This document shows, piece by piece, positions 1 through 64,000 of a DNA stretch of 64,000 bases. How positions within the stretch are numbered: the stretch's first letter is position 1; every line of letters begins with the position of its first letter. The position numbers were made by a program, and so were the translations under genes. The notes under the pieces are model-generated. The model ran no database searches. It was not told where the DNA came from and worked only from the letters and a program-made list of their open reading frames with translations. Source of the DNA: Blepharisma japonicum. Lineage: Eukaryota > Ciliophora > Heterotrichea > Heterotrichida > Blepharismidae. The stretch is from NCBI GenBank assembly GCA_949751835.1, contig CATKHK010000131.1:1-64000 (forward strand), written 5' to 3'.

Positions 1-3000
1 AGTTTAATTATGGAAATACAATTATATCACTAGAAAATAAAATCATAAATTCGACTCTGGAAGCAAATGATTGTTTATTCGAATATAACACAGGATCATT
101 ATATTCGCTAGATAATGATTACGTTTTCGATAAACATACTATAGCTCGGCATAATTATTCACCAAGCTCAGGCGGGGTAATAAATATTAAAAATTCAGCA
201 ATTTTTTGCTCCAAAAATTCTTATTACTTTAACAATACTAGTAATTTGAATGGAGGTGTTGTTTCACTTAGCTCAGAATCTCAATTTTTTTGCAATTATT
301 GTAATTTTACACAAAACCATGCTGGCTCTTCAGGAGGTGCTATATACGCAGATTCAGATTCTATTTTTTTCCTTATCAGCTCTATTTTATCCAAAAATTC
401 TTGCCAAAATACCGGATCTGTTATATTTTTAGTCAGCACTGCATCTAGCTCAATAATAAATGGTTCTGAAATAACAGAAAATCACTCATATAGTGAAGGG
501 ACAATATGTCTTTCTTCATCTCAAATTAACATTTATTCCACAAAAATATATAAAAACTCAGCTGAGAGCAATCCAAGTATACAGTTAGAAGATTCAAAAA
601 TAACGCTTATTGACTCTGAATTTTCAAACCAAGCATGCGACCAAGGATGCTTCCTTAACTTAGGAGCGAGCTATGCGAAGATAATTAATTGTAAATTTTC
701 AAATGGATATTCAAACCTTTCTGGAGCTGCTATATACACGACTTTCAGCACCTTGGATGTTTTAAATTCAAATTTTTCTGAACTTTACACGAGTGCTAGT
801 GGAGGAGCAATATATTTAGACGAGGAAAGTACTATTTTCGTAGAAAAATCAACATTTGGTAAAATGAATTCTTCTTTTGACTTATCTTTAAGTACTATTA
901 AAATCTCAAAATCTTCTTTCAAGGATTATTTGAATTCTGCGATTTTAGCATCACAATCAGAACTAGAAATTACAAATTCTGAGTTTTTAGAAGGCCTTGG
1001 AGTTAATGGAGGCGCTATATTTTGTTCAAAATGCTCCAGAGTATCAGTGAGCTCATCTTTATTTGCAAATAATTCAGCAGAGAATGGTGGAGCAATTTAT
1101 ATTGAAAATAAGGGACTAGGGCCTGAGTCTAATCAACTAGCTATTGCATCATCTTTATTTGTCTCAAATACTGCAGGCAATGGTGGGGCAATTTGAGCAA
1201 ATAATGCTGCGCTACAAATAAATTCTTCAAATTTTAGTGAAAACTATGCTGAGGCAGTTAAAACTGCATCGCTTCAAGAAATAAAGGATGGAGTAGGTGG
1301 CGCAATAAAAGTAAGCTGCCAGGATTCAGATTTTATTTGTAATTTTGAGTTATCATCAAATTCTTTTAACAACAATAGTGCAGTTTATAACGGTGGAGCT
1401 ATAAGCTGAGATGACTCAAAGCCTCTATTCAGTCTCAATACTTTTCAAAATAACTCCGCACAGTATGGAGAAGACATTGCTTCATTTCCCACAATGATCG
1501 TTTTTATCAATACCAGTATTGATAAGCATCTTTGAATGAAAGATCCTGTAGATAGCTATTTAGATTTAACGCTAAACAATATTGCATCTGGACAAAATAG
1601 AAATCCAAACCTAACCTTTGCATTAGTTGACGATCTATACCAAATAATAACTACAGATATTACAAGCCAAGCCAAAATGCAATCAGAAAACAATGATGTA
1701 ATTGTTTCTGGTACTTCTATTGCTACTTCAAAAAATGGGATATTTTACTTTGACAGTTATATAATTGCAGCAAAGCCAGGGTCTTCTAGCAAGATTGCTA
1801 TAATATGCCCAACAATTGATATCTCAAAAAGTAAAACCTCGTCCAATGTTCTGCTCATGTCAACTAGTTTTTACATAAATGCAAATTTTAGATATTGCGA
1901 AGCAGGAGAAGCAGCTGTTGGCTTAAATTGTGAGATTTGCCCCAAATTTTATTATAATATAGATGCGAAATACTCTAAGTGTTTAGATTGCCCTTCTTCT
2001 GCAGTTTGCTATGGGAGTTATAAAATGGTTCCAAAATCAGGATATTGAAGAGATAATAAATTTACAGATGTATTCTGAAAATGCCCATATTCATCTGCTT
2101 GCTTGGGATCCCCCGACTCTAATAATATTTCATTTACAGGAATATGCAAAAAAGGATATCAAAGTAATATGTGTAATTCTTGTGAAAAGAGTTATTCGAG
2201 ATTATATAAAAATCAATGCCAAGCTTGTCTTAGTAAATCTAACAACATTTTTAGATGACTTGGAATTTTTATTTTATTGATTTTAATCATGATGGCAATT
2301 ATAAAATCCGTCAGGAAATTTGCACTAGAGGCAAAGTCTTCACTGTCAATTTATATAAAAATTTTTTGGAGTTATTTACAAATCATGATTATTATTGCGA
2401 CTTTCAATTTAAATTGACCACCAGAACTTTTGAAATTTTTTAATGCTCAAACATCAATTGATTACATCGGAACTCAGCTCTTTTCTTTTGGCTGTTTTCT
2501 ACAATCTTTAGAGTCAAAGAGAAAAATTTATTTTTACCAAATTTTAATCACAAGCTTAACTCCATTTTTAGTTGTTTTAGCATGCTTTATTTCATGATCA
2601 ATGATTTATATTATTAAGAGAAAAAATATAAAGGAAATGAAAAATGATTATATATCAACGTGTATTATTTTGATATTTTTAATCCATCCTAGCTTCTTAG
2701 GCATGATGTTTAATATATTCAGTTGCAAAGAAATTAATTCTGGAGAATTTTGGCTAAATTCTGATCTAGGGATTAGATGCTGGGATCGCGATCATTTATT
2801 TTACGCCCTGCTGTTAGCTCTTCCTAGTATAATTATTTGAGCTATAGTAGTTCCAGAACTTTGCCTAGCAAATCTGGTAAAAAATAGGACTTTATTAAAA
2901 AAAGTCCCAATTAAACTAAGGTATGGATTTTTATTTTATGGGTATAGATCTAAGTTTTATTACTGGGAATTTGTGATTTTATATTATAAATCCATTTTAG

Positions 3001-3518
3001 TAGGCTGCTCAGCATTTTTGTCAAATGTGTCAATAAGTGTTCAATCTCTTACAGTAGCCATTTTAATGATTTTATTCTTTTACATACAGACTAGAAATCT
3101 ACCATTTACTGAACCATTATTTAATAAAGCAGAAAATTTTTCAAGATTAGTTTCTCTTATAACTATTTTAGCTGGTATTTTCTTTATCACCGATGATTTA
3201 GATTATACGTCTGTACTATTGCTTTTACTAGTTGTATTATTTTTAAACGCTATTTTTATAATTTGGATTATATGAATATTTTTAGCTCAATTTTCTTTTT
3301 TCAAAAAATCGTTTTCAATAATTATTAGAATTTTATATTCAAATCGTGAAAGAGCATATATAATAGAAGACGCTAATTCAGATATTAATTCAGATATAAA
3401 TTTCAAAATCGATAATTATCAAAGCATAGATGTGATTAATTCTACAGGAATTAAAGAAATTATCTCTAATGAACGAGATCCCTGCCCTTCAGATCAGAGT
3501 ATAGAGAGTAAAAACTAA
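1..3518 (+). CDS. A1: type-A LNR/beta-helix/multi-TM surface protein, 5' truncated by window edge
   Basis: This is the C-terminal half (about 1,171 residues) of a type-A family member. It enters the window in frame (first full codon at base 3) and ends at TAA 3516-3518. TGA must be read as Trp at several places, for example 1194-1196 and 2046-2048. Beta-helix repeats with GGA[IV] and FxxN run to about base 1500. The 'ASGQN...FALVDDLYQIITTD' module follows at about 1575-1880, then the ephrin-receptor-like Cys domain (CEICPKFYYN, CLDCPSSAVCYG, GYWRDN) at about 1890-2250. About nine hydrophobic segments lie between 2250 and 3310, including FYYWEFVILYYK. The last 65 or so residues form a polar tail ending SDQSIESKN. 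No internal stop or frameshift was seen. The signal peptide and LNR head lie outside the window. A plasma-membrane receptor or adhesin role is inferred from architecture. Confidence 0.9.
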
Positions 3519-3706: not shown

Positions 3707-6700
3707 ATGCAATTTTTAGTGATTTATGTATTTTTCCTCAATGTTCAGAGCAAAGACTTAACATGCGATTTATCTCTTTGCCCAGATATTATTGTAACAA
3801 TAATTTAGAAAGGCGACCATAGATGCCATCCCGAATGCATGAGCTCATCTTGCAATTATGACACAAATTTTGAATTAGATGGAACAGTTTTGAAAGAAAG
3901 CTCAGATTGCTACGGATATTGTGTCAGTCATGACGGCTGCAACCCAGAAAATCTTGGAAATGGATCTTGTGATGAGTCTTGCAATACAGAAAATTGCGGA
4001 TTTGACTGGGGAGATTGCCTTTGTGCTCCTGGGTGTTTAAATTCTATGATGGGAGATGGAAATTGTGATGAGGAGTGTAACAGTTGAGACTGTGACCTTG
4101 ATAATCATGACTGCGGGGCATGTGCGTCAGAATGCTTTCCAATTATGCTTGGAAATGGGGTTTGTGATCCTGAATGCAATAACGAAGACTGCTTATATGA
4201 TTATAATGATTGCCAATGTGCAGAAAACTGCTTATGAACTGATTATGGGGCTTGCAAGCCAGAATGCATGGTCGCAAGCTGTAATTTTGATAAAGTTGAT
4301 CAGTATCCTGATAACTGATGCTCTAATTCTTCATTAGCTATTTTCTCCTCCTATCAGCAAATCATTCGAGGTGATTTTTCATACGTAACTCATCTTGAAG
4401 ACTGCTATTTAGCTTCAAATTTCAATTGTACATTGGAAAAAGCCTTTTCCCTATCAGAATGCTACAATGAATGTAATATTATTGAATGCAATTATGCAAA
4501 TGGCAACTGTAATACTGAAACCCCTGATGATTTATTCTGTGAGCGTTCTTATAAATATTCAGGTGGCTGCATATCTTGCAAAAAATATTATCATAGCATT
4601 CTATCAAATGGAGTTTGCATCAAGATAAGTGGCTATTTTTACCCATTTCGATTTCCTGATAATGCTTATGTTTATTATACACAAGTTGACAAATCTTCGA
4701 AGGAAAACCCACATATTTATTTTATATGGCCTATCGGAAACTCAGGACCAGAATGAGGATATGGAACTATTTACACTCCTTGGGAAACTATCACTGCTCT
4801 TTCCAGAGTTCAATATAAATATATAACTGTTTATTTATTAGAAAGTGATAATTATTTTGCAAGAGTATTCCCAATACCAGGTACATCCGGAATAGGCGGA
4901 TATAGATCTTTTAATACAAAAATTATTTTTAACAGTTTTTCTATGAAATATGTAAAAATTACAACTTTGAATAGCACAATAACTTATCATAGGGCCTTTG
5001 ATGATAGAAGTGACAGTACATTTTTATTTTATTTGGAAAATGTTAAAAACTTGGAAATAAGTAACGTTATTTTTGACTGAAAAAATACAGTCAGCAACTG
5101 CAATGATGAAAACTATTGTGATTATTGTCCTTTTGCTATTTATGATTCTGCATCTGGCATGCATTATAATGATAGGGGAGAAAATTTAACCGATTTTTTA
5201 TCGTCAAAATGATGCCAAAATGATAACAATAAAAACTTTTTCCATCTTGTGAATAGCAACTTGGCATTAACTAATGTAACTTTTATCAATTTTCGAAGTG
5301 GGTTTAATTCGATCATATATGCTGAAAATGGAAATGTGACTTTGAATAATGTTACTTTTGATAATATTAAAGTGTATGATGGCGATAGTTCTGGAGTTAT
5401 AATATGGAATGGAACGAATAATTCGAGCTATAATTCTGGTAGCTTAAAGTTTGAAAATGGTATTGTAAATAGGTTAAATAATGGCTATGAACTTAAAGAC
5501 ACTATTAATACTAAAGGATTCTTGCATGCCATCAATATTACTTCAGCACTATTTCGAAATGTTGATTTCAGGAATAATGTAATGTTGAGAGAATCGGTAA
5601 CAGGCTTAAATAGTGCTTCAATGTTGTTTTTAAATTTATTTCAAGCACTTTGAATAGATTCTTGCTCTTTTGTGTATAATTATTGTGATTTAGGAATAAT
5701 CAATTTACAGCAGCAGTATAATTATTTTTCTCTTGAAACAAATGATTTAAAAGAAATCATTTATTCAACACTGAATCATGTGCATATTAAAAACTCTAGT
5801 TTTATATCAAATTATGGGAAAAAAGCTGGAATCTTGTATGCGAAATATGATTATGAAAGCAAAAACTTTCTTATTGAAAATTCTTCTTTTATTATGAATG
5901 GCATTGAGAATGGACCTTTAATTTATATTGAGAGTAATAATGCAGATGAAAGCTTTTCTAAAGATAATATAATAAGCTTAGCTCAAGCTGATGGTGAATT
6001 TATAGATACAGTTTATTTAGCTAAATGAGCCAAATTCTTCAACTTAACATTGCTTGAAAATTATTCAGGAAAAGCAGGGCTGATAGAAATTACAAAAATG
6101 ATTAATTTGGAGCTAAAAAACATTAATATTAACTCAAACGGATTAATTTTAGCTGAAGATGTGAATATAAATACAATTCTTTTAAACCATTATATTGATG
6201 ATCCCGATATGTATATCAAGCTAAATTTCACTAATCCACCTGATTTGGACTGCGAATATCTTTCTTCAATTTCAGATTCCATCAATTTAAACATAAAAAA
6301 TGCAAATATTCTTAAAAATAACTGTAAAAGCTCTTCTCCAAGTATTATAATATCTAATACAACAAATACAAACATAAATTCATCACTATTTGCAGAAAAT
6401 ACTGGCTCAGGAAGCACTAGTGTTTGTTTAACTATTCTTGGAGATTCATTGACTTTTATAGCCAATTCTAAATTTAATGCAAATAAAAATAGTCACTCTG
6501 GCAGCCCAGGCGCGCTAAGTTGCTCCTCCAATTTATTACTACAAAATTGTTTATTTGTTGACAATTCTGGAGATTCTGGAGGAGCTATTTGCTTCACAGG
6601 CCAAAATCTAACAATCTTGTCATCAGAATTCACTTCCAATAAATCACCTAATTTATCAGGAGGAGCTATTTATTTTTTAGTCTCTTTAAATGCTGTTGAA

Positions 6701-9700
6701 GCCTTATTACTTTCTATTACTGACTCCACTTTTTCTAATAATTTTTGTTCAGCTAATGGTGGAGGGATTTTTATTCACCGAAATACTCCTTTAGAGCCTA
6801 TTTTATCAATTTTTATTTCAAATGCTAATTTTTCTAATAATGAAGCTTTAGATGGTTCTTGTGTTTATGTTGATAATGATATTACTCTATCCTCTGATTC
6901 ATTAATGTTTAATTGCAATTTTGAAGAAAACAAAGCAAATTTTGCAGGCGCATTTTCAGCTTTTTATAAGTATGGAGTGTTCTCTTTTAGCCAATGCAAA
7001 TTTCTAAAAAATGTTGGGCTTTATGGCTCTGCAATTGACATATCTATTGGTGAAGATAATGAGAAAAAATCATCCAAAATAATTTTAAATTCTTGCTTGT
7101 TTCAATATAATTCTGGGATGGCAACTATATCAATTGATGATTCGAATGCAAACTCTACTCTGGAATCAAATGATTGCTTATTTGAATATAATGTTGGATC
7201 AGTATTTTTAATCGATAGCGATTATATCGCGGATAAAAATTCTATTATCCAGCATAATACTTCTCCTATCTCTGGAGGGGCATTCAATCTAAAGAATTTT
7301 GCAATTTTCAAATCTGAAAACACAACATATTTTAATTGTAGCAGCAATCTTAATGGTGGAGTAGCTTCAATCAGCTTAGAATCTCAATTTCATTGCTTTT
7401 ATTGCAAATTTATCAAAAATAATGCAGGTTCTTCTGGCGGTGTTATATATGCTGACTCAAATGCACAATTCTTTATCGTAAGTTCAGATTTGACTCAAAA
7501 CTCTTGCCAAAACATAGGATCGGCTATATTCATGGCAAGCACATTGGTGGGCTCATTAGTATACGAATCTGATATAAGTGATAACTATTCATATAATGAA
7601 GGAACTATCTCTCTTTCATCGTCATCTATTTCAATATTTTCGACAAAAATATCAAAAAATTCTTGTGGTGGAGAAGGGACAGGGATTGAGCTAGAAGATT
7701 CGAACGCTACAATCATGGATACAACTTTTTCTGACCAAAAAGGAGTCCAGGGGAGCTTTATTCTTATGGGTGCAAGTAATGTAAAAATCACAAATACAAG
7801 TTTTTCTAATGGATTTTCTATTAATTCAGGTGCTGCGATATATGCGATATCTAGCAGCTTAGAGATTATTAATTCTACATTTTCAGATTTATATACTAGT
7901 ATTTATGGTGGAGGTGCAATTTATTTATATGAAGAAAGTAGCATGCATCTGGAAAACTCGAGTTTTATAAATTTAAACTCCGCAATTGATTTATCATCAA
8001 GCTTCATTAATATTTCAGATTCGTCATTTAAGAATTATTCAAGCGTTGCGATTTTCGCAACACAAACTGATTTACTTGTAGCAAGGTCGAAATTTTCAGA
8101 TGGCTTAGGAATCAATGGAGGAGCTATTTATTGTTTGCAGTGCAATAATATTTCTATTGTTTCATCTTTACTTATGAATAACCTCGCAGAAAATGGTGGA
8201 GCTATTTATGTCGAAAATGAAGCAGATCATCTTGCTTCATCTCAGTGCAATATTATATCTTCGTCATTCATATCAAATAGAGCTGGTAACGGTGGTGCAA
8301 TTTGTACAAAAAATATAAATTTACATATTTCCGAATCAGAATTCATAGGAAATAATGCTAGGTCTTGGAAGACTGAGACACTTCAAGATATAATTGATGG
8401 AATTGGAGGAGCAATAAAAATGAAATGTGAGGATACAAAAATCAGCTGCAAATTTGATATTTCCTCAAATAATTTTATCAACAATAGCGCAGTTTATAAT
8501 GGAGGAGCTATTAATTGAGAAGACTCAAAGCCCTTATTCTTAAACAATACTTTTAGAAATAATTCAGCTAAATATGGAGCAGACATTGCTTCATTTCCAG
8601 TTATGATGATTTTTTTCAATAATACAAAAAGTCGATTTTTAGACACTCAATCTTTTTCCGAAAATAGTACAAGTTTAACTCTTAATGATGTTGCCTCAGG
8701 GCAAAAAGATAACCCACCTTTAGCCTTTGCGTTAGTAGACGATATTTATCAAATTATTACAACAGATATTAAAAGTCAAGCTCAGTTGCAACCAACAAAT
8801 AATGATGCAATAATTTCTGGAACTTCAATAGCTTATTCAAAAAATGGGATTTATTATTTTGATAAGTATATAATTTCTTCAAAACCTGGCTCATCGACAC
8901 ATATTAGTTTAGTATCTTCAGCAATAGCTTCATCAAATATTTCTGCATTTTCTATTTATGTCAATCTACGATTATGTGAAATCGGAGAAGCGACTGTAGG
9001 CTTAAGCTGTGAAAAATGCCCAAAATCTTATTATAATATAGATGCTGAAAATTCTAAATGCTTAGATTGTCCTTCCTCTGCTATTTGCTATGGAAACTAC
9101 ACAATGGTTCCAAAGCCAGGGCATTGGAGAGATAATAAATTCACAGATCATTTTTGAAAATGCCCATATTCTTCTGCTTGCTTGGGATCTCCAAATTTAT
9201 CCAATATCTCTTTTACGGGAACTTGTAAGAAAGGATACGAAAATAATATGTGCCATTCATGTGGACATGGCTATTCGAGGCTCTATAAAAATGAATGTCA
9301 AGCTTGCCCTCATTTAGTAAGCAATATTTTCAGATGGTTTGGGATTTTTATATTTTTAATTTTTATTGCACTAGCTATTCTCAAAACTACCAGAAATTCT
9401 GCTTTAAGACCCTCATCAGTCTCATCAATCTACATTAAAATTTTTTGAAATTATTTACAAATTATGATTATTATTGCAACTTTTAATTTAAATTGGCCAT
9501 CTCAAGCAATTCAATTTTTCTATATCCAAACCTGTCTTGATTACATTGGAGCTCAACTGTTTTCTTTTGATTGCTTTTTACAGTCATCAATCCCAAAGCA
9601 CAAAGTTTATTATGATAAAATTTTAATCACAAGCATAACGCCTCTCGCCATTAAATTGGCCAGCTTTTTCTTGTGACTAATTATATACAAAGTAAGTAAA

Positions 9701-10645
9701 AAACGAATAAAAGAAATATGAGACGATTATATATCAACATGTGTTGTTTTATTGTTTCTAATTCACCCAACTATTATTGGCACTATGTTTAGTGTTTATA
9801 GTTGCAAAGAAATTAATCCTGGGGAATATTGGCTTAATGCTGATCTTGGAATTAGGTGCTGAGACCATGATCATGTGTTTTACGCATTTTCGATAGCTCT
9901 GCCAACAATATTTATATGGCTTATTATACTGCCTGCTATTTGTCTTGTAAATTTAATAAAAAATAAGAATGTCCTGAACGAAGTCCCATTTAGAATGAGA
10001 TATGGATTCTTATGCAATGGATATCGCTCAAAACTTTACTACTGGGAATTTTTGGTATTATATTATAAAGTCATTCTCATAGGCTGCGCTGTGTTTTTAT
10101 CTAATATCTCAATAAATATTCAAGCTATTACAGTAGCGATCTTACTCGCCTTGTTTCTACATCTACAAGCTAAAAATCAGCCTTTTATAGAAGATTTTTT
10201 AAATAAAACTGAGACATTTTCTAGGATAGTATTGCTAACAACTATTTTGGCAGGCCTTTTCTTTTTAACAGATGATCTAGATACATTGAGCACAATTCTT
10301 ATACTTTTTGTGTTATTGATTTCAAATATTTTGTTTATTTTATATATTTTTCTGAAGCTTCTAAGGCAGCTTTCTTTTGCTAATAAAATTATTGCCGTTT
10401 TATCAAGAATTTTGCATTTTAGAAAAGAAAGAAAATACGTTTATATAGAAAAAGAGCAAATTATATCCGATGAGAACAATCATGATTATAAAATTGTCCC
10501 TTTTCAAAGTAGTAAATTTTCCAGCACAGTTATATTTGGAGATAGTTCAAATATTGATTTATCGAAAGAAATTAACAAAAATGCAAGTATGTCGCTTGAA
10601 ATTGCTCCACATAATTCAGAACAAAGTGAATCATCTGATAATTAA
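3707..10645 (+). CDS. A2: type-A giant LNR/beta-helix/multi-TM surface protein (2,307 aa)
   Basis: Complete type-A gene with one 15-nt intron (3794-3808). The ATG at 3707 begins a signal peptide (MQFLVIYVFFLNVQS, residues 1-15). LNR-like modules follow at residues 20-265, for example GNGSCDESCNTENCGFDWGDC split by spacing typical of Notch LNRs. A GYGTIYTPWETI segment near residue 350 resembles the start of beta-helix domains. The beta-helix spans about residues 500-1625, with GGAIY repeated roughly every 25-60 residues. 'ASGQKDNPPLAFALVDD' lies near 1660 and the ephrin-receptor-like Cys domain at 1750-1870. About nine TM segments cover 1870-2232, with LYYWEFLVLYYK before TM6. The cytosolic tail ends HNSEQSESSDN, stop TAA 10643-10645. 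Many Trp codons are TGA. I found no in-frame TAA or TAG outside the intron. A surface receptor or adhesin role is inference. Confidence 0.93.
3794..3808 (+). other. 15-nt intron of A2
   Basis: The sequence is gtaacaataatttag: GT at the start, A at position 10, AG at the end. It is phase 0, directly after CPDII. Unspliced it would put TAA/TAG in frame. All intact family heads have a 15-nt GT-AG segment at this position. Confidence 0.93.
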
Positions 10646-19644: not shown

Positions 19645-19859
19645 GGGTTTTCTACTCTAGAATTTGCTTTTATAAGCAATTAACTTAATGACTAAATATT
19701 TGCTATCATGTTGCTCCATTCATTTTCGATAATTATTGGTTAAGTATTGTTTAATTCATAGGTCTTTCCTGATCCTTTGGCTCATGTAGTCTGATTCTTA
19801 GCACCGCTTCATAAAAATTAAAAAAGGTATTAATAATTCTGATTATTTTTTTAATAATT
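19645..19859 (+). promoter_or_regulatory. B4 upstream region, partly conserved before B6
   Basis: About 95 bp (19645-19738) match 36380-36475 with scattered changes. Then about 80-90 bp are present here but not before B6, and the last 25 bp before the ATG match again. Conservation may only reflect recent duplication, so promoter function is unproven. Confidence 0.4.
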
Positions 19860-27032: not shown

Positions 27033-27594
27033 AGAAATTATTTGCTTAAGATAATAATTTTAAGCTTTAGCTAGATATATGAAATATAGGACCTTAATAT
27101 CAGGTAAACAATATCCATTTTGATACTTTATTTTAAATTATTTTTCAATTTTCTAAATCAGCTATTTAAAAAGTTGAAAACTATCTGTTTTATTTCTTTT
27201 TTAATTACTAAAACCATACAGAAGTTATTTTAAAATAATAAATGAGCCTTGATTTATGCGCTAAAACATTAATCTTATTTAATCTATTTATAAAAATTTA
27301 AAATACAATCTAATTTCTTTTAAATTAAATTTATACTAATGGATAACTTAATACTCTAATTGAAATTTTTTAGTTTATTAAATAAACTCTCAATCATCAT
27401 AATTGATAAAATTTAATTGCTAAATTCAAGGATATTTTAAAAATTTTTTTTGCTATCAAGAGACATTACAAATCTCTTGAAATGATATAAAATTCTTTAA
27501 TCTGGGTTGCAGGGATATTTGAAATGTTTATATTATTAGGAACTATTGTATAAATCTATATATAAGAAAATGATTAAACTATTTGTAATTATAA
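27033..27594. other. B4-psi2 intergenic region (about 560 bp)
   Basis: AT-rich and gene-free. Much of it aligns with 43679-44217 after B6, for example the stretches near 'atttatgcgctaaa' and 'ttatttaatctatttataaa', so it is duplicated flank. No terminator or promoter motif recognised. Confidence 0.5.
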
Positions 27595-50200: not shown

Positions 50201-51168
50201 TATGAATTTTAATTTATAAATACAAAAGTAAACGAATAAAAGAAATAAAAGATGATTACATATCTACTTGCATTGTATTATTATTCTTAATACATCCAAG
50301 TATAATTGACACAATGTTCAGCACTTTTAGTTGCAAAGAAATAAATTCCGGAGAGCTTTGGCTGAATGTGGACCTTGGAATTCGATGTTGGAATCGCAGC
50401 CACCTTTATTATGCTTTACTACTTGCTCTACCTACAGTAATTATATGGGTCATTGCAGTTCCTTTACTTGCCTTTATAAATTTAATTAAAAATAAGAAGC
50501 ATTTAGAAGAAATATGAATGAAAAAGAGATATTCATTTATATGCAATGGGTATAACTCAAAGCATTATTATTGAGAATTCTTAATTTTATACTGCAAAGT
50601 GATATTAATTAGTTGCTCAGTATTTTTGTCTAATATCTCAGTTAATATTCAAGCTCTTACAGTAGCACTATTTTTGGTTCTATTTCTTTATCTTCACACC
50701 AGAAATGAGCCATTCAGCGAAACATTTTTTAATAAAGCAGAAACATTTTCCAGACTTGTATCTCTAATAACAATACTTATTGGTCTTTGCTTTTTAACAA
50801 ATGACTTGGGTGCTGCTGCTAATTATTTTTTAGTTGTTCTCTTAATAATGGCTAATGCAATTTTTGTACTTTATATCTTAACAAACTTCTTGCTTCAATT
50901 TACTATTGCAAATAGAATTATGGCTATAATAAAAAGAATTTTCTGTTGGAAAGAGGAGAAATATACTATCAATATTGTTCCTTATGATGAAAGTGACCAA
51001 TCTCAAAGCTACAATGAGCAGAAAAGTCAGACAGGAAAACTTATAAGCACAATGATATATTCTGGCAACACAAAAATTGAAAATGTAAAGATCTTTAGAG
51101 AAAATTTGGGGAGTTCAAATGAAATAGGCCCTTTTGTTTCAGAACAAAGCATCCCTGCTTTTAGTTAA
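44218..51168 (+). CDS. A7: type-A giant LNR/beta-helix/multi-TM surface protein (2,311 aa)
   Basis: Complete type-A gene, one 15-nt intron (44305-44319). ATG 44218 starts MKYLIISFTLLLVKGKDLEC, with the signal peptide ending near residue 15. LNR-like modules lie at residues 30-264. The lead-in SGVGNYFSPFKSLSFAL is near 360 and the beta-helix runs to about 1,626. 'IASGQNNNPPLAFILVDD' lies near 1,655. The ephrin-receptor-like domain is at 1756-1873 (YYNIDVRVSKCLDCPSSAIC; GYWRDS with TGA). About nine TMs lie at 1876-2233. The tail ends FVSEQSIPAFS, stop TAA 51166-51168. TGA is Trp repeatedly, for example near 45607 and 46555. Its first 490 bp have a broken twin in psi2, and psi3 immediately downstream is closest to its 3' third. 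Confidence 0.93.
44305..44319 (+). other. 15-nt intron of A7
   Basis: The sequence is gtaactttaatttag: GT-AG, A at position 10, phase 0, with an in-frame TAG if retained. It aligns with the dead intron of psi2. Confidence 0.92.
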
Positions 51169-51336: not shown

Positions 51337-53600
51337 TTCATTTACTGGTAATTTGGGGGAAAATGGAGGTGCAATTTATATTTCAAATGAAATAGATCAC
51401 CCAGAAAGCTAACTAGCTACTATTTTTTCTTTTTAATTTCCAAAAAAATATAGCAAGTAACGGTGGAGCAATCTGAACGAATAATATTAATCTACAAATT
51501 TGTTCATCACTATTTATAGAAAATACATCAGAGTCATTGGAAGCAAAGAATTTTCAAGGAAAATTAGATGGACAAGGTGGAGCGCTTAAAGTAAGCTGTA
51601 AAGGTTCGCAGTTAATTTGCAGTTTTAATATCTCATCAAATTCTTTTATAAATAATAGTGCAACTTATAATGGTGGAACTATAAATTGAGATGATTCAAG
51701 GCCAATCTACGAAAATAATAGTTTTCAAAATAATTCGGCTCAATATGGAACTGTATGGCTTCTTTTCCAGTAATGATGATTTTTCTAAGCAATGATACAA
51801 GGAATGTGGAGAATCAAACATTCTCTGAAGATAGGATCAGGCCAAAAACATAATCCTTTATTAGTTTTGGCTTTGGTTAACGATTTTTATCAATATGTTA
51901 CCACAGACTTTACAAGCCAAGCTCAATTGCAAGCAATAAATGATAATACAATTATTTCAGGCTCTGCAATGATTAATACAAAAAATGGGTTTTATTATTT
52001 TGATGATTTCATAATTTCAGCTCAGTAAGGCTCTTCTGTGTCTATTGATATCGTTTCTTCAGCAATAGATACTCAAAAAATGTATACACTAAGAGAAAGC
52101 CTCCAAATGTCATCTACCTTTTCTATAAATGTGAATCGTCGCACATGTGAAATCGGAGAAGCTACTGTTGGCTTAATTTGTGAAATTTGTCCAGAATTTT
52201 ATTATAGTATTGATTCTAGAGTTTCCGCCCATCTTCTGCGATTTGTTATGGAAATTTTACGATGGTTCCAAAGTCAGGATATTGAAGAGAAAATAAATTC
52301 ACAAACAAGTTTTGGAAGTGCCCTTATCCTCCTGCTTGTTTAGGATCTCCTTATGTTTCAGACTTGGATTTGACTGGAGTTTGTGATAAAGGGTATGAAA
52401 ATAGCATGCGCCATTCATGCACAATTGGCTATTCAAGATTGTATAAAAACGAATGCAATGCTTGTCCTAGTATAGTCAGTAATGTTTTTAGATGTATAGG
52501 AATATCCTTATTTTTACTTTTTATCTTGATACTCATTTTAAAAATAAAAAGAAACTCATGATATAAACCAAACTCTTCTTATTCTACAGTTTATATAAAA
52601 ATATTTTGAAAATTATTTGCAATCATGATAATTATAGCTACTTATAATTTAAACTGACCATACGAAGCAATCCAGTTGTTTTAATCCAGACTTCTCTCGA
52701 TTATATAGGAAGACAGCTCTTTTCTTTTGATTGCTTTTTAATTTATAAAGTTAAACGAAAACAAATAAAAAATAATTATATATCTACCTGCATTGTATTA
52801 TTATTCTTAATACATCCAAGTATGATTGATAAAATTTTCAGCACTTTTAGCTGTAAAGAAATAAATTCTGGAGAGTTTTGGCTAAATATTATCTTGGAAT
52901 TAGATGCTGGGACCATAATCACCTTTTTTATAGTTTATTACTTGCTTTACCTACAATAATTATATGAGGGATTGCAGCCCCTTTTCTATGCCTTCTTAAT
53001 TTAATAAAAAACAGTCAAGCCCTAGGAGAAGTATGAATGAAAAAGAGATATGCCTTTCTTTTTAGTGGTTACAACGCAAAGCATTATTATTGAGAATTTG
53101 TAATTTTATATTACAAAGTGATATTAATTGGTTGCTCTGCATTCTTATCAAATATTTCAGTTAATATTCAATCTCTTATTTTTGTGATTTTCCTTTATTT
53201 TCATACCAGAAATGAGCCTTTTAATGAAATATTTTTCACTAAAGTAGAAACATTTTCTAGTTGATCATAATAATTGCAGGTCTTTTCTTTTTGACAAAAA
53301 ATTTGAATGCAGCTGCGACTTATTTTTTACTTTTGCTTTAATAATCACAAATATTATATTTATAGTTTACAATTGTCTGCTTTCTGATGCAATTTTCTAT
53401 TATAGCTATAACAATTTTTAGAATTGGGAGGATTTCCAATTTAACTTCAAAGAAATATGCAATTAAAGTCGTTCCTATAAATAAAAGTGAGCAAGATCAG
53501 AGCTTCAAAGATATTCAAGGCTCCTATGGAAAATTAGAGAGCACTATGGTAAATAGACCCTTTTGTTTCTCAACAAAGCTTACCCTATATAAGCGAAACT
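51337..53600 (+). pseudogene. psi3: decayed 3' third of a type-A gene
   Basis: It aligns best with the last third of A7. It begins inside the beta-helix (ENGGAIYISNEIDHPES), keeps the ASGQ-like spacer (GSGQKHNPLLVLALVNDFYQYV), the Cys domain (CEIGEATVGLICEICPEFYY, CHSC changed to RHSC) and TM segments, and fades after the tail. It has many breaks: a TAA replacing the first codon of the family's EPG (52026-52028), a TAA after PES near 51409, a small deletion near 52228 that removes the CLDC codons, and missing segments near 52680 and 53270. No head is present, so it was a partial duplicate or lost its 5' part. It starts about 170 bp after the A7 stop. Confidence 0.88.
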
Positions 53601-53704: not shown

Positions 53705-56700
53705 ATGCTTTTAACATTCTATAGACTTCTGTGATTTTCTCAAGCATTTGGAATCAATATTGTATGCAATTTTTATGAATGCCCTCCAATTTATGTATTT
53801 CATAATTAGAGAGGTGATGGAACATGCCATATCAGCTGCATGGCTCCTTATTGCAACTTTGACATGCAAGAATTTTATCAAGCCACCAAAGATCCTACGA
53901 AATCAGATTGTTTACTTGAAGAGCCATGCCATCTCTTCAGTAATTATCAATGTCTTGATGAATGGCTTGGTGATGGAACTTGTAACGAAGAATGTAATGT
54001 CCCATCATGTGGGTATGATTTTGGAGACTGTGGATATTGTGCTTCATCATGTAAATCACATTTAGGCTTTCAATCCCAATTGGGAGGAACTTGTGATACT
54101 GAATGCAATACAACTTCATGCTATTACGATGCTGGGGCTTGCTTGGAGTGCTCTGTAGGGTGTAACTCAACTATATGAGGAAATGGAATCTGTGACCAGG
54201 AGTGTAATAATAAAGAATGTAATTACGATAATGGAGACTGCTCAAATATCACATGTGCACCTAACTGTTATAATTGAATGCTAAATAACTCAATTTGTGA
54301 TGAAGCTTGTCATGTAGAAGAATGCGGATTTGACTATTTCGATTGTGATTGTTCTCCTGGCTGTTTTTCTTATTTATTAGAAAATGATGAATGTGACGAA
54401 ATTTGTAATAATTTAGCTTGCGAATATGATAAAGGGGATTGCGGATATTGTGCAAGCGGCTGCTTTTTGGATATGCTTGTGAATGATATTTGTGAAGAAG
54501 TTTGCAATAATTTTGCATGCAAGTATGATTATTATGCCTGCAAATGTGCTGATGATTGTTTAGCAGAAGATTATGGAAAATGCAAGCTAGAATGCTTAGT
54601 AATGGACTGCAAGTACGATCAAATAGGCAATGATCCTACAAAGAGATGTAATAATACAAATTTAGTTCTCTATTCCTTAATACAACAAACAATTAATCAA
54701 GATTTTGACATCCTAGTTAATTTTGATTCTTGCTTAGAAACGTCATCTTCTCAATGTTCTTTGTCAATGTCAGTTGATTCGGAATCATGTTATTCTGAAT
54801 GCTTTTATAAAGAGTGTAACTATGGCCTATGCAACTTTTACACTGATTGCTATTCTTTACCTTTAGATGCGCAAGCCATCTGCGACATATGCCAAGGTGA
54901 AGCCTTATTTACCTGTATTTGATTTGGAACAGGCCAGCTGCTATTCATGTTAGGCCTTGGAATACAATACAATAGTAAATGGCTTACAGCAGGACTTCCA
55001 GATTTCAACATATTCTATGCAACTTCAAGACAAGTAGGATCTTCTCCATCAGGAGACGGCAGCACTCACTTTCCTTATGAAACTCTTGACTATGCATTAA
55101 AATCTATTTCTCAATTAAAAGGACAAACTAATATTTTATACTTAAGATGTGATGGAAATTATAGCTTAAATAATTGTGATGCTTTTGGGACTTATGATTC
55201 AGTCTATACAATAAAGGGAAGTTGTGAAAGTAAAGTTACAATAAAAATAAATGGATGGAAAAAATTCAGATGTGCCATTAGTTTATATGTAAAATTCGAA
55301 AATATAATTTTTGATGGTTCTAAGCAATATACTACATGCAATGATATAGAGTATTGCGAATATTGTTCGTATAACACTTATAATAAAAGTGACGGCTATT
55401 ACTATAATGATAGGAATCAATCTGTTTCTAAGAATTTACCAATAAACAATTGCAATCGTAATCAAAATTATTATCTTGGCATTTTTCAGATTATCAATAG
55501 CAAATTAACGCTGAAAAATGTTGAAATTAAAAATTTTCGCTTTAATTATGATTCTATCATATGAGGATATGGGATTTTAAAGCTGTTCAATGTTAACTTT
55601 GATAATATACAACTATATGGTTCTGATAAAAATGCAGTTATATATCATAATACTTTCTGAGGAGATAATTTTCAGCTAACTTATATAAAAGGGTCTGTAA
55701 AGAAATTAAATAATGGATATGAGCTAGATGATCCAGTTGATTTTCGAGGATTCTTATATGCAGCGGGCTTTTCTTCAATTTTAATAAAAGACGTTGAATT
55801 CAAATATAACTTGGTGTACAGGAAGCCAAAAAGTTCTTTATCAAGTGCTTCATTAATTTATCTAAAATCAATTAGAAGTATTGAAGTCAATAATTGTACT
55901 TTTATATATAATTATTGTGAAACAGGCATTTTCAACTCAAATCTAGAAGTAAGCACCTATCAAACTGATTATAATGAGACTAGTCATTTGACATACCTAG
56001 CTCAAGCTCATATTTATATCCATGATTCTAAATTTATCTCTAATTATGGGACTCTCGGGGTTATTCATATCGAATTTTTAAGCAAGCTGCTCAATATCCA
56101 TTTAAATAACATTACATTTGAATCAAATGGAGTAGAGAGCGATTCTTTGGTTTATATATATAACCCTACAATTTTAGATGAGTATAAAAATGAAACAGCT
56201 TCTAATATTGTCATTTATGGTAAAGGAACATTAAATCTAATCCTGCTTCCAAGATGATGCAAAATGGCCAGTATTGAATTTAAAGATAACCATGCCTTGA
56301 GTATTATTAATGCTACGAATTTGGTGAATTTTGATATAAATGATTTATTGATAGAGTCAAATGGATCTCCGGAAGAAGGTAAGAATGTTAATACTTTACT
56401 TTTCGATTATTTCATCAAAAATAGGGATACAGAAAATTTATATATAAGCAGAGGAAAATCGAATGTTCAGTCTACTGATTGCAGTTTCATGGTTCGAATA
56501 GAGAAGCCTTATAATTTGAAAATTATAGATATAACACTGCGAAATAATATATGTAGAAATTCATCACCTACTTTTCAAATTTATAATTCAGATATCAGAT
56601 ATCTAGCTTATATTAATTGCTTTGATAATATTGGATACGGGCCTTTGCCTGTATGCTTACATTTTGTAGGATTTTTTGATAGAAACATAACAAATTCAAA

Positions 56701-59700
56701 TTTTATTGGCAATATAAATTATCATAAATCTGGAATTGGGGTATTTCAAATAGAAGGTGAAAATAATTTATATATCACAAATTCCTCATTTATCAATAAT
56801 TCTGCAAATCTGATTCCTCTATACTTTTCTGGCAAAAGTATTTATATTAATTTTTCAAAATTCGAATTTAACAAATCAATATTTGGTAATGGAGGAGGAT
56901 TGCATTTAATTCTATCTTCTTCAATTCATATTGGATCAGTAATCATTTCATCGAGTAATTTTACTTGCAATTCGGTCAATGTTAATGGTGGGGCTATTTT
57001 CATAAAGGAAAAAACAGTTTCTCTCTTGAAACTTCAGCTTCTGGTTTCCCAAACAATTTTTTATGGAAATCATGCAAATTCCGGTTCAGCATTATATATT
57101 GATAGCTCTGTTATATTATCGCAAGATTCAGTAATAATTGGCTCAAAATTTATAGAAAATGAATCAAAGATGTCTGGAGCTATTTCTTTATATTATTACA
57201 GTGGAATTTTGTCTATTTTGTCTTGTAGTTTTATTGAAAATACTTCACAAAATATGGGAGCAGCTCTCCATATTGATATCCCAGAAGACACACAAAGTCT
57301 ACGATCAAAGGCTGTGATTGAATTATCCACTTTTAGAAGAAATATTGGGGATTCTATCATTTATGTTGATAGCATAAATAGAAATTCTTCAATTGAAACC
57401 AAAAAATGCTTATTTGAATACAATAATGGCACTATTGTATCATTAAATCATGACTATTTTATTGACCATGGCTCAATTTTTCAGCATAATACTGCAGCTT
57501 TTGGATCCTGCTTTTCTCTTCAAAATTCGGCAATATTATATGCAAATTCGCAATTTTTAAACAACACTAGTGATGAATATGGAGGAGCAGTGGCAATGAG
57601 TTTTAAATCGGTTTTTTTCTGCGATAATTGTATATTTATCGGAAATTGAGTCAAAAAAGGAAAAGGAGGCGTATTAATAGCGGAGCAAGATTCTCAATTT
57701 TTTTTATCAAATTCAAGCTTCATTGAAAATTCATCAGGAAATGATGGATCAGCAATTTTTGCATTTAATTGCAACTCTACAGCCTCTTCTATAGATAGCT
57801 CTATTTTTTTAAGAAACCATGCATTAGGCTCTGGTGTAATTGCATTCATAAGTTCAATAGTCTCAATATTGTCATCTACCATTGATAACAATTCAAATGA
57901 AGGATATGCATCAGGAATAAAATTAACTTATTCAATAGCCAAAATTTCTAATTCCATGTTCGCAAATCAATCAAGCGCCTCAGGTAGCTTCATTTATGCT
58001 CTTGCAGGCAGTGATGTAGAAATAAAAAATACTACATTTTATAGTGGAAATTCAGAAGAAAGTGGTGGAGCAATTTACTCGAGTGAAAGTTTTATATTGA
58101 TAGACTCCTCTGTTTTCACTGGCTTATCATCCCAGAAAGGGGGTGCTATTTATTCTGCATTTGAAAGCGCAATTACCATAAAAAATTCTGAATTTTCTGA
58201 TCTTAAAAGTTCAGTAATAGGAGGGATTATCAATGCTAACCAAGCTTCATTAAGTATAGAAGATTCAAGATTTGACAAATTTTATATGACAGGAATATAT
58301 GGAAAACAGCTAAAAATGTTAAATATAACGAATTCAGAGTTTAGGGATGGTTTTGGGTATAATGGAGGTGCAATATACTGTGAATCGTGCAGCAATATTA
58401 ACATTAAATTGTGCACATTTGATAATAATAGCGTTGATTTATATGGTGGCGCTTTATTTTTGACTTCTAGTGGTGAAATAAATACAATCCATAATATTTC
58501 AGCATGCAAGTTTATTAACAATAGTGCCCAAAGCGGAGGAGCCATAAATTCAGACGGTATGAACTTGAAAATATCCTTATCTGATTTTGAACAAAATAGA
58601 GCTATTTCAAAGCAAGATAAAGGAGAATATGGAATCGGAGGAGGAATCAGGATTAGTTGTCAAAATTTCCAATCATGCAAATTTAAAATCCAATCATGCT
58701 ATTTTACTGAAAATACTGCAAAATTTAATGGTGGAGCTGTTAGCTGGGATGATAACTTACCTGAGTTTATAAATAATTTATATGAAAATAATGTCGCTGA
58801 GTATGGAGAAAACATAGCTTCATATCCTGTCAAGTTAATGCAAGTTAATATGGATGGGTCTTTGGAAGGCTATAAAAATAAAAAAATAGCTGATTTTGTA
58901 TCAAATTCGAGCTTGACTGGAATAGCTCCTGGGCAGACTGTTAAAAATAAATTACTAGTAGCCCTAGTGGACAATATGAATAATATTATACGAACTGACA
59001 ATCGAAGTGAAGCAGAGCTAAAATCAATTAATTTAACTACTCAAATTTCTGGAAAAGTCAAAGTTAAGGCTAGCCGAGGAATTTTCAATTTTTCTGATTT
59101 TGTTATTTCGGAAGAGCCAAGGTCTGAAATTCAAATTATAGTCACATCATCCGCAATTGATACAAATAAAATAAAAAAATCAGGAGAAACAGTTTTTAGC
59201 AAAAATATAACTTTTGATGTAAAAATCCGAGAATGCAAAGTAGGAGAAGTCAAATCTGGAAAAAACTGTGATGTGTGCCCAGTAGGATTTTATAGCCTAA
59301 ATCCCAACTTAATTTCATGCTTATCTTGCCCTGATGTAGCTGAATGCTATGGAAATTATACTATTGTGCCTAAACCTGGCTATTGGAGAGATAACATGTA
59401 TACAGATAAGTTTTGGAAGTGCCCTCATCCTGCAGCTTGCCTTGGCTCTCCTGATAAAAGTAACATTTCCTTAACAGGAGAATGCGGGAAGGTTTATAAA
59501 GGCAATAAATGCCAATCATGCCAAACTGGATATGTACATACTGTAGAAAACAAGTGCGATAAGTGCCCAGATAAAACGAACAATATTTGGATGATATCAG
59601 GAATCACTTTAGCGCTTATTATAGTTTCATTTCTCATTGTAAAAGCGACCAGACAGTCTGCTTTTAAGCCTAAATCGCACCTTTCAATTCATATAAAAAT

Positions 59701-60877
59701 ATTTTTAAACTATATTCAAATGGCTATTTTGGCTTCAACATTTAAACTCAACTGGCCAGACGAACTTTTAGAGCTTTTTACTATTCAGCTGAAATCTGAC
59801 TATATTCATCAGCAAATATACTCGCTCCATTGCCTGTTTCAAAATGAGACATCGCAAGACTTGGTCTATTTCAGAACTCTTATTGTTACAGCTTTAATGC
59901 CAGTTCTTATGATAATTTTATCACTATTATTTTGGATGACATTTAAAAAGTTTAAAAAGACCTATGAAACTTTCTGAGACGATTTTATATCAACATGCAT
60001 CATTTTATTGTTCTTGATTCATTCAAATATAGTGCAAACTATGTTTGCGTCAATGAATTGCACAGAAATAAACCAAGGGGAATATTGACTGGAAATAGAC
60101 CTTGATGTTCGTTGCTGAAATAATAGTCATCTTTTTTATGTCTTCACAATTTCATTGCCGTCCATTATTTTATGGGGAATTATTTTGCCTAAAATTTGCT
60201 TGGTGAGCCTTATAAGAAATAAAAATCAGCTTGACAGTATAAGCGTTCGCCTTCGGTATGGATTTCTCTTCAATGGATATAAAATAAAGCACTTTTATTG
60301 GGAATTTATTATTTTATATAGCAAAATTATTCTTATCAGCTGCTCAGTATTTCTAACAAGAATTTCAATTAAATTGCAAGCCCTTATTGTAGCTATTTTA
60401 TACACAATTTATCTGCATTTGCAATATGTGAATAGTCCTTATAATGAATCCAATTTAAATCAAATGGAAATAAGAGCTAAGGCTGTCTGCGTAGTAACCA
60501 TCTACTGTGGGCTTTTTTATATAATGGGCCCTCTTGGTAACGTAGCAAGCTATTTTCTTTTTATGCTGATCGTTTTCACCAATTTTTATTTTTTAATTTA
60601 TTGGGTATGGAACCTTTTAAAATCAATTTTGATGAAAATAAATCAACGAATAATTGATTGGAAAAGTAAAAGTAAGGCAAATGATCAACTTAAAGATAGT
60701 AATTTAAAGAATGAAAGCAGAGAAGACTTAGAAAACATTTTTAGCAAAAGAATCAATGTCTCGATTGCGTCTAATGAGAATTTTTTAAGCGAAAGCCAAG
60801 CTTTGAGTCTATATAAGAATGAACACTATCAGAGTGAAGAGATTAAAAATGATTCTGAAGAAGTTAAGCAGAAATAA
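53705..60877 (+). CDS. B8: type-B giant LNR/beta-helix/multi-TM surface protein (2,385 aa)
   Basis: Complete type-B gene. ATG 53705 gives MLLTFYRLLWFSQAFG (the second W is TGA) as signal peptide. A 15-nt intron (53795-53809) follows CPPIY. LNR-like modules lie at residues 31-378 (EWLGDGTCNEECNVPSC; NGICDQECNNKECNYDNGDC). GSSPSGDGSTHFPYETLDYA near 440 leads into the beta-helix (to about 1,704). 'IAPGQTVKNKLLVALVDN', then the ephrin-receptor-like domain (GFYSLNPNLISCLSCPDVAE; GYWRDN with TGG) at 1838-1951. About nine TM segments lie at 1954-2311, and the tail has VSIASNENFLSESQAL. Stop TAA 60875-60877. Genomic length is 7,173 bp, the same as B4 and B6. If the 15-mer at 54051-54065 is also spliced, the protein is 2,380 aa like theirs. 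Confidence 0.93.
53795..53809 (+). other. 15-nt intron of B8
   Basis: The sequence is gtatttcataattag: GT-AG, A at position 10, phase 0 after CPPIY, with an in-frame TAA/TAG if retained. Confidence 0.9.
54051..54065 (+). other. Possible second 15-nt intron in B8
   Basis: The sequence is gtaaatcacatttag, aligned exactly with the second intron of B4 and B6, with GTAA start, TTTAG end and A at position 10. It lacks an in-frame stop and would read KSHLG if retained, so splicing is plausible but not forced. Confidence 0.5.
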
Positions 60878-61178: not shown

Positions 61179-64000
61179 TTAACTGTCTTCAGCTTGTTTT
61201 GCTGTTTCCTGATAGTTGCAATCTTTGCTTAAATTTTCAATTAATAAAACATCACTCGATGCAATAGAAGAGTTTATATTCTTCAAGTTTTGGCCATCTA
61301 AATAATTTTTACTTGGGTTCTCCTCTTCAATTTCACTTTTAACCTTATTTTTATTTCGCCATCTGCTAATATTTTTTTTAAGTACAGCTCAAATTGATTT
61401 AAGAAAGTGAAATGCCCAGTAAATTAAAAAATAAAGATTTGCTATAACAATAACGACATAGAAAAAAACGTTTGTTCCATCACTTAATGAGCCCATTAAA
61501 TAATAAAGTCCACTGTATATGGTAATAACACAAACTAATTTTGAGCGCAGATCCATTTGATTTAATATATACTCTTTATAAGGATTATTTGAGTATTGTA
61601 AACGAAAATAAATTGAGTAAATAATAGCCACTATTAGTGCTTGAAGTTTTAAAGAAATTTTTGTTAAAAATACTGAGCAGCAAATCAAAATGATTTTGGT
61701 ATAAAGAATAATAAATTCTCAATAAAAATATTCGGTCTTGAATCCATTGAAAAGAAATCCATAAGTAAGGCGGACATCTATATTGTCAAGTTTTTTTCTG
61801 TTTTTGATAATATTTATCAAACAAATAGTAGGCAAAATAATACCCCATAAAATGATACTGGGCAAAGAAATGGTCAACATATAAAATATATGATCATAAT
61901 TTCAGCACCTTATGTCAAGATCTTCTTCAAGTCAATATTGGCCAGAATTAATTTCTGTGCAGTTCATCGATGCAAACATTTTTTTCACAATGCTTGGGTG
62001 AATTAAAAATAATAAAATAATGCATGTTGAAATAAAGTCATCCCAAAAAGTTTTGTATGAGGATTTGACTAGCTTAATAATATACCAAAAGAGGAAAGAT
62101 AAAATTGACATCAAAAAGGGAATAAAAGCAATAATTGTAAGAGTCCTAAAATAAATCAAACTTATGGAGTCTTCATATTTAAAGAAACATTGAAATGAAT
62201 AAATTTGTTGATAAACGTAGTCAGAGTTATTTTGGATTTCGAACAGTGCCAAAACTTCTGATGATCAATTCAGTTTGAAGCTCGAGGCTAAAATAACTGT
62301 TTGAGTATAATTCAAAAATATTTTTATATAGATTGATACTCGCGATTTTGATTTAAAAGCAGATTTTCTTGTTGTTTTTACCATTATAAATGATAATGTA
62401 AAGAGTAAAATCATAATTCCTAATAATATCAAAATATTGTTTTTAGTATTAGGACATTCTTTACATTTATTACTGGATGTATGCGAATATCCAATTTTAC
62501 AGGATTGGCATTTGTTGCCTTTATATGGCATCCCGCATTCTCCTGTATAGGAAAGATTATTTATATCAGGTGAACCCAGGCAAGCTTGAGGATATGGGCA
62601 TTTTCAAAATTTATCTGTATAAATATTGTCTCTTCAATATTCAGGCTTTGGAATCATTGTATAATTTCCATAGCATATTGCATTATATGGACAAGCTTGG
62701 CATGAAATTAAATTTGGATTTAGACTATAAAATCCTTCAGAACAAACCTCACAGTTTTTCCCTGACTTTACTTCTCCTATTTTGCATTCCCTTATTTCTA
62801 TATCCAAAACCAAATTTTGACTACAAAAAGGCTCCCCTGATTTTTTAATTTTGTCTATATCAATTGCTGAAGAAGTGACCATTATTTGTATAGAAGATCC
62901 AGGTTCTTCTGATATAATGAATTCAGAAAAATTAAAAATTCCTTTTAGAGCAGTAACTTTGATAATTCCTGACAGTTGGGTTGATGAGTTAACGGCTAGC
63001 AGGCTAGCTTCACTTGAATTATCGGTTCTTACAATATTATTCATATCGTCAACTAAAGCAATTAGTAAGGGAACTTTTATAGCTTGTCCAGATGCTACTT
63101 CAGTTATATTGAAGTCTGATATTGGAGTATCTAAATTTCTTCTTTTATAGTCAATTAAGCTTCCGTCTTTATTTGCTTGCATTAGCTTAATTGGAAAAGA
63201 AGCAATGCTCTGTCCATACAGAGCAATATTGTTTTTGTAATAATTATTAAATAGTTTAGGCATTCTGTCATCTCAGCTAATGGCTCCTCCATTAAATGTC
63301 GCAACATTTTCAGTAAAACTAGTATTCTTTATAATAAAATTGCACATTATTGTGCCAGAACAAGACATTCGAATTCCTCCACCACTTCCGTATTCTGCTT
63401 TGTTATTTTTTTGTAGTATTGCTTTATTTTTCTCAAAATTAGATAAATGAATATTTATTCCTACGCTGCTTATCCAGATTGCACCTCCGTTTTGAGCAGT
63501 ATTAGCATCAAATATACACTCAGAAATGTTATAAGGTTCCCTTATTTCATTACTCGTTGTAAAAAATAGTGCACCTCCATTTAAAGATGCGCTATTACTA
63601 GTAAAAACGCTCGAGTCAATATTAATTACACTGCATGAATCGCAATATACTGCTCCGCCATTAATTCCAATGCCACTCATAAATGTTGAATTTATGATTT
63701 CTAAATTTTTTAGTTCTATCCCATATATCCCTGATAAAGTAAACTTTGTAAAAACTGAATTTTCAATTGACAGAGCTGACTGATCAGCATTTATGATCCC
63801 TCCTGCTGAAGCACCATTTATATCATAAAATTCAGAGTTATTGATATTTACTGTGCTTTCAAAAGTAGCATAAATCGCACCTCCTTTAGAAGAAGACAAC
63901 TGATTAAACTCTGAAGAATTTATTAAGAGTGTGCTAGAGCTTAAGTAGATCGCCCCTCCACCCTCAGAAGTACTACCTTTATAAAATGTCGTATTTTGAA
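61179..64000 (-). CDS. B9: type-B surface protein on the minus strand, 5' part beyond window
   Basis: C-terminal 939 or so residues of a type-B member, in reverse orientation; the N-terminal part lies past base 64000. The stop TAA is read from 61181 to 61179. From right to left: beta-helix repeats (KGGAIYATFESTV; NGGAVYC; NGGALFF) to about 63200, then 'VASGQAIKVPLLIALVDD' (about 63100), then the ephrin-receptor-like domain (GFYSLNPNLISCQACPYNAI; PEYW where others have PGYW) at about 62800-62460. About nine TM segments follow to 61390. The tail contains NINSSIASSDVLLIENLSK and ends QAEDS. Trp codons are TGA at several sites, including the RDN-preceding Trp near 62637. No internal TAA or TAG was found in the segments I read. 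Confidence 0.9.

Follow-up and report, generated by a model that had tools for sequence, protein, structure and literature searches.

A tandem family of giant Blepharisma proteins with LNR modules, a beta-helix and a TRP-like membrane domain

The window analysed here, the first 64,000 bases of contig CATKHK010000131.1 (C131, 88,147 bases) in a 45.2 Mb, 224-contig assembly of the ciliate Blepharisma japonicum, is filled by nine members of one protein family, whose frames take up 55,806 of its bases (87%). The proteins share a domain order: a signal peptide comes first, then five or eight LNR modules, some 1,250 residues of right-handed beta-helix, a segment rich in Cys, about nine transmembrane (TM) helices and finally a short tail. 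From sequence comparison, we conclude that the membrane domain, towards its C-terminal end, shares homology with the C-terminal part of PF06011 (TRP, a fungal TRP/Pkd2-like family), and that by the cut-off of that family the proteins are not members of it. Tentatively, and at a little less than an even chance, we read the family as a set of paralogous cell-surface sensors, each with an LNR head that a stiff stalk connects to a TRP-like membrane domain, probably one that passes Ca2+ or other cations. LNR modules, beta-helices and TRP-like domains are each known; what appears to be new is their combination in a single chain, in more than 70 copies.

Domain order of the family

When TGA is read as Trp (table 4), the window contains nine open frames of 939-2,424 codons, eight on the forward strand and one on the reverse, and the first and last of them run past the window edges. 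The standard code (table 1) was rejected, as it fragments these frames, and so was table 6, which leaves no long continuous frames; TGA must be Trp, because table 4 merges the broken table-1 frames into nine long ones. For Blepharisma stoltei, the genome paper gives UGA as Trp, introns mainly of 15-16 nucleotides and CCCTAACA telomeres (PMC9942806). In our assembly, three units of CCCTAACA occur 168 times and the reversed control never; among the places listed, they lie at contig ends, and the last 248 bases of C131 do not contain the repeat. Introns of 15 nucleotides (GT..AG) stand at corresponding positions near the 5' ends of the genes. In six genes, one such intron separates a short signal-peptide exon from the rest, with a single in-frame ATG in each of the 260-base stretches searched. 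The gene called G3 (10873-18060) has its start within its own open frame. It is probably spliced too, since a stop-free 15-nucleotide GT..AG stretch (10954-10968) sits at its conserved intron place. An intron of this frame-neutral type would be taken as coding by open-frame gene finders. The open frames, the splice sites and the substitution ratios given below all argue for one transcript per gene.

The original prediction, made from the letters of this stretch alone, had described a 64-kb cluster of nine giant LNR, beta-helix and multi-TM genes with three pseudogenes and nothing else recognisable, and its account of the tandem layout and of the domain order was right. The nine genes stand beside decayed copies near 18.4-19.2, 27.4-28.1 and 51.4-53.3 kb; tRNA and Rfam scans of the window give no match, and outside the genes every table-4 frame of at least 100 codons falls in one of those three copies. 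Seven genes are complete in the window and encode 2,307-2,395 residues each, close to the predicted 2,300. We scanned eight of the nine proteins (all except that of G6) against Pfam. The predicted LNR modules (PF00066) score above cut-off in six of them, and the other two lack the region, as they are cut by a window edge. Complete genes have either five CxxxCxxxxCxxD cores (type A: G2, G5 and G7, with G1 assigned by similarity) or eight (type B: G3, G4, G6 and G8, with G9 assigned by similarity). Protein identity is 54-62% within types, except for the pair G4/G6 at 91%, and 36-40% between types. In G3, which we use as the reference for coordinates, the eight-module array covers approximately 10921-11772; this and all G3 features below are on the forward strand. 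We regard these domain facts as well supported.

The predicted Pmp-like beta-helix stands as a fold, and less so as a Pmp profile. Chlam_PMP or Beta_helix scores above cut-off in four of the eight scanned proteins, below it in one, and is not matched in three; Chlam_PMP (PF02415) alone is above cut-off in just two (G1 and G9), below it in two (G4 and G8) and unmatched in four. The G3 protein, which has no Pfam beta-helix match, is nevertheless modelled as a beta-helix in a 1,100-residue model built from seven rows of the window. From residue 591 onwards, 39 of 51 ten-residue blocks of this model have beta structure with a predicted local distance difference test (pLDDT) of 70 or more, whereas the model as a whole has a pLDDT of 52 and a predicted template modelling score of 0.56, and its LNR part (pLDDT about 20-30) is unreliable. 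Four PDB entries match it at E<=0.001 (best 1.8e-4), and all are chains of PL6 alginate lyases, which are beta-helix proteins. On inferred limits, the G3 stalk spans some 1,270 residues (12280-16092), of which the model reaches only to 14214. Autocorrelation over lags 15-39 peaks at 27 for Gly and at 26 for hydrophobic residues in six of six genes, with coefficients of 0.09-0.17 and no shuffle control, and Asn and Ser give scattered peaks. The usual rise of a beta-helix is 0.48 nm per coil. From the 26-27-residue period and this rise, we estimate a stalk of about 45-50 coils and about 20-25 nm. A genome-wide search with PF02415 returns one match, so short repeat models count poorly here.

The Cys-rich segment (16471-16770 in G3) holds 12 of the 15 Cys that are invariant over 37 paralogs. 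The segment itself had been predicted, under an ephrin-receptor-like label that fits it weakly. Ephrin_rec_like/GCC2_GCC3 (PF07699, cut-off 23.1 bits) is found in one of the eight whole proteins, at 15.2 bits, and in 28 of 37 uncut C-terminal pieces of paralogs at E<=1 (best 1.9e-4); DUF7630 is the better fit, with 35 of the 37 pieces at E<=1 (best 6.7e-7). We also observe PF09402 (Man1-Src1p C-terminal) in 22 of the 37 at E<=1 (best 1.6e-4), lying over the Cys segment in the three members inspected, which is probably a chance similarity of Cys spacing. The membrane domain follows (16777-17907 in G3, its end inferred). The earlier count of about nine TM helices holds approximately: hydropathy gives 6-9 C-terminal segments per gene, and a model from nine sequences (pLDDT 67) has eight helices of at least 20 residues and one broken helix. 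When the TM profile is compared with the PDB by sequence, nothing is matched beyond 25 residues of the Cys region, at E 9.2.

Homology of part of the membrane domain to PF06011

The C-terminal halves of 34 paralogs (34 of the 73 full-span copies described below, six of them from the window) match PF06011 in 29 cases at E<=1, with a best E of 4.1e-7, and match any other family in at most three; the stretch scanned was picked after the uncut and cut scores of one member, L069, were known. None of ten reversed control pieces matches. The cut-off of PF06011 is 28.5 bits. L069 reaches 31.4 bits in the genome search but scores 18.9 bits uncut and 25.6 bits cut with hmmscan. Over the whole genome, PF06011 has 35 matches at E<=10, of which 19 lie by position within the LNR/beta-helix family, one of them above cut-off; 14 control genomes give no match. 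In G3, the counterpart of the matching stretch is 17341-17850.

A separate family in the same genome provides a second line of evidence. PF06011 is above cut-off in all three of its fetched members (29.2-31.7 bits), and a profile comparison between it and the LNR/beta-helix family recovers the same motif (E 1.4e-5, probability 80%, 136 columns); with the C-terminal half alone, the comparison gives E 2e-5 and a probability of 77%. The three members (L070, L071 and L072, on C15, C139 and C51) have a different ectodomain, for which L070 has a weak Ig-like match (Big_5, E 0.014). Among the genome-wide TRP matches, five are on C139 and two on C110.

Several results count against a TRP-like channel. 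In the window genes, this C-terminal half matches PF06011 weakly, in three of nine at E<=1 (best 0.002). TRP is not listed at E<=1 for the uncut C-terminal pieces of 37 paralogs, nor at E<=10 for two uncut paralogs that were rescanned; since uncut pieces miss and cut halves match, detection depends on the stretch supplied. The best-aligned member covers only positions 271-413 of the 426-position model. Foldseek places no PDB entry on the TM model at E<=0.001, and the best match, at E 0.021, is a sodium/proton exchanger; the low quality of the TM model means that the missing fold match is no proof against TRP homology. No pore motif turned up, in work that included no search aimed at one, and not every PF06011 member need be a channel. 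The receptor-like reading of the original prediction was right in its layout and missed the PF06011 homology, in the light of which the proteins look less like generic receptors and more like channel-like sensors.

Family size, selection and function

The family is large in this genome. Two single-protein searches return 83 and 81 matches, and 73 of the 83 are full-span copies (beginning at position 1 and reaching position 440 or beyond, out of 529), located on 22 contigs; two of the 73 contain an internal TAA or TAG. At least 62 of the 73 have an LNR match on their own strand no more than 7 kb upstream, a lower bound, as 150 of 501 LNR candidates were scored, giving 140 matches. One of the 11 copies without an upstream LNR is G1, which is cut by the contig start. 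A tree of 37 members has several well-supported clades. Members of the type-A clade and of the type-B clade occur together on C131, C137, C150 and C9, so block duplication has probably spread old A and B lineages. A younger duplication is seen within the window, where 19831-27353 and 36474-44031 are 92.9% identical; one copy is followed by the intact gene G7, the other by the second decayed copy.

The ratio of nonsynonymous to synonymous substitution rates (dN/dS), calculated by the Nei-Gojobori method with table 4 for six pairs, stays under 1 wherever a domain and pair gave a usable value, and the genes therefore look as if they are in use. It is 0.05-0.34 in the LNR array, 0.27-0.67 in the linker (five of six pairs), 0.24-0.53 in the early helix, 0.23-0.32 in the late helix, 0.10-0.40 before the Cys segment, 0.05-0.14 in the Cys segment, 0.09-0.17 in the TM domain and 0.44-0.67 in the tail (five of six pairs), values that are unreliable insofar as the synonymous rate is mostly near or above 1, except for G4/G6. 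Divergence is fastest in the linker, the early helix and the tail, while the membrane part is conserved.

The proposed sensor would work as follows. A head of five or eight LNR modules would be held out on the stiff right-handed beta-helix and would bind a surface, a particle or a soluble ligand. Displacement or binding would then be transmitted down the stalk and through the Cys-rich segment to the membrane, where the TRP-like domain would change state, probably admitting Ca2+ or other cations. The stalk would be a built-in lever, by analogy with fission yeast Pkd2 and Chlamydomonas PKD2. Paralogs differ mainly in the linker between LNR array and helix, in the early helix and in the cytosolic tail, which would suit them to different ligands and outputs. 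What is inferred here is the surface location, the length of the stalk, the binding of ligands, the gating by force or ligand and the ion flow. One cell may have dozens of such sensors, for contact or for chemicals. If so, a ciliate would have a numerous and varied group of giant surface proteins that unite lever and channel-like domain in one chain. They would be candidate genes for the sensing of contact, prey or mates, and would offer a natural setting in which to test stiff-stalk gating of a TRP-like domain; a large protist family would also be seen to use the LNR modules best known from Notch. The most specific version is a repertoire of over 70 TRP-like channels, each a single chain with an LNR head and with its rod-shaped tether built in, which would serve to recognise contact, prey or mates and be gated by force or ligand via a 20-25 nm lever; this we consider unlikely.

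Among alternatives to the sensor, adhesion or surface-coat proteins come first, as a doubtful candidate that deserves weighing: rod and head would hold the cell to its food or substrate, or make up a coat, and the polytopic domain would be a mere anchor without channel activity. Beta-helix rods and PMP repeats are known in adhesins, the adhesin PfbA is among the weaker structure matches of the G3 model (E 0.01), and a large diversified family suits this role. However, the Cys and TM regions are the most constrained (dN/dS 0.05-0.17), beyond what an anchor seems to need, and the membrane domain has TRP homology. Variable surface antigens, of which one or a few copies are expressed and the clusters serve as a reservoir, like ciliate immobilisation antigens, would account for the tandem arrays, the recent 7.5-kb duplication, the decayed copies and the copies within a few kb of contig ends. 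We think this improbable: the distance to the nearest contig end is 1.6-314 kb (for the 64 of 73 copies whose contig size is known), so that copies are not mainly terminal and a subtelomeric location is not supported, dN/dS is below 1 in all measured domains, and a multi-helix TRP-like domain is not expected as an antigen anchor. Metabotropic receptors, whose Cys-rich segment and polytopic domain would signal like family C G-protein-coupled receptors (GPCRs) without ion flow, are suggested by NCD3G, the nine-cysteine domain of family 3 GPCRs, which is found at E<=1 in 12 of the 37 paralogs (best 0.0016). That explanation has little going for it, as NCD3G is far under the curated cut-off in the members shown, Pfam scans of the eight window proteins and of the paralog pieces find no 7TM receptor family, and the model has about nine helices, not seven. 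That the beta-helix is a cell-surface carbohydrate-active enzyme is hardly credible, for although every PDB match at E<=0.001 is a lyase, the TM-scores are just 0.10-0.23, as for a shared general fold, and Pfam finds no lyase family in the eight proteins.

The cell-surface sensor we favour resembles several known systems in part. Notch shares the LNR modules (PF00066), which are a calcium-binding fold there. Notch also has an EGF array, three LNRs, an HD domain, a single TM helix and ankyrin repeats, whereas the Blepharisma proteins are polytopic and carry N-terminal LNR arrays of five or eight; EGF, HD and ankyrin families are not found in the eight whole proteins, save for weak laminin-EGF-like matches in one Cys segment. 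Chlamydia Pmp proteins share the Chlam_PMP repeats and the beta-helix, but scans of the eight proteins find no autotransporter barrel family, and the membrane domain is helical. The polycystin-1 family resembles them in that a polytopic domain related to TRP carries a giant ectodomain built of modules; its modules differ, and the eight proteins contain no PLAT, GPS or REJ family. Fungal Pkd2 and FLC, members of PF06011, share sequence homology over the C-terminal part of the membrane domain and probably its nine or so helices, though the window copies fall below the family cut-off. The ML-like lipid-binding ectodomain of these fungal proteins has no match in the eight whole proteins (Pfam, E<=1). 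Fission yeast Pkd2, with nine helices in its membrane domain and a putatively lipid-binding ectodomain, is reported to pass Ca2+ under membrane stretch (PMC11277609); the Blepharisma proteins have LNRs and a giant beta-helix instead. In Chlamydomonas, PKD2 anchors long extracellular MST1 polymers, the mastigonemes, so that a long extracellular structure is likewise coupled to a TRP-class protein; there the polymer is separate and has Ig-like and Sushi domains (PMC10846610), whereas in Blepharisma one chain includes the beta-helix. The titles and abstract openings searched, in which subscription literature is mostly not covered, hold no description of a single-chain LNR/beta-helix/TRP-like architecture. 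The word Notch is absent from the main text of the Blepharisma genome papers (PMC9942806 and PMC9942856, supplements excluded), and the passages on LNRs in PMC10970066 concern animals only.

Genes of the window and related loci

All features here are on the forward strand except the last gene. G1 (3-3518) is the 3' part of a type-A gene, a table-4 open frame with the end of the beta-helix, the Cys segment, the TM domain and the tail (Chlam_PMP 6.5e-14). It is followed by G2 (3707-10645; type A, 5 LNR, 2,307 residues, intron 3794-3808, LNR 9.5e-12) and by G3 (type B, 8 LNR, 2,395 residues as an unspliced frame, LNR 8.4e-13). The first decayed copy (18406-19214, outer limits approximate) shows, in a three-frame reading, an LNR head interrupted by stops and breaks of frame, followed by a post-helix remnant and a type-A LNR piece, with an LNR match at 18785-18883. 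G4 (19860-27032; type B, 8 LNR, 2,380 residues, introns 19944-19958 and 20194-20208) lies in the segment that is 92.9% identical in DNA to that of G6 over 7.5 kb. Reading frames identify the second decayed copy (27405-28084) as a truncated type-A 5' end, 83.7% identical to 44028-44709. Next come G5 (28143-35135; type A, 5 LNR, 2,325 residues, intron 28230-28244, LNR 3.2e-13), G6 (36506-43678; type B, 8 LNR, with LNR matches, 2,380 residues, introns 36590-36604 and 36840-36854) and G7 (44218-51168; type A, 5 LNR, 2,311 residues, intron 44305-44319, Beta_helix 3.4e-8). The third decayed copy (51360-53345) is the 3' half of a type-A gene, disrupted by stops and frame breaks and 78-79% identical to G7, with TM fragments at 52229-52690 and 52890-53324 that contain TAA. 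G8 (53705-60877; type B, 8 LNR, 2,385 residues, intron 53795-53809) has matches to LNR at 7.1e-23 and to Beta_helix at 1.5e-8. G9 (61179-63998, reverse strand), type B by similarity, has only its 3' part in the window, as an open frame (Chlam_PMP 2.8e-9). Family matches run on past the window end to 85 kb of C131, and reverse-strand LNR matches at 67.6-67.8 kb are probably the head of G9.

Two observations concern other contigs. On C198, a G1-like gene (L049) lies as far from the start of its contig as G1 does and is 96% identical to window positions 429-3518 (3.1 kb), beyond which the match there ends; it is either an allele or a close paralog, or else a branch of the assembly. LNR matches that have no full-span membrane domain within 7 kb downstream, at C41:280419-282893, C5:340755-342973 and C1:290341-291072, are perhaps other LNR proteins.

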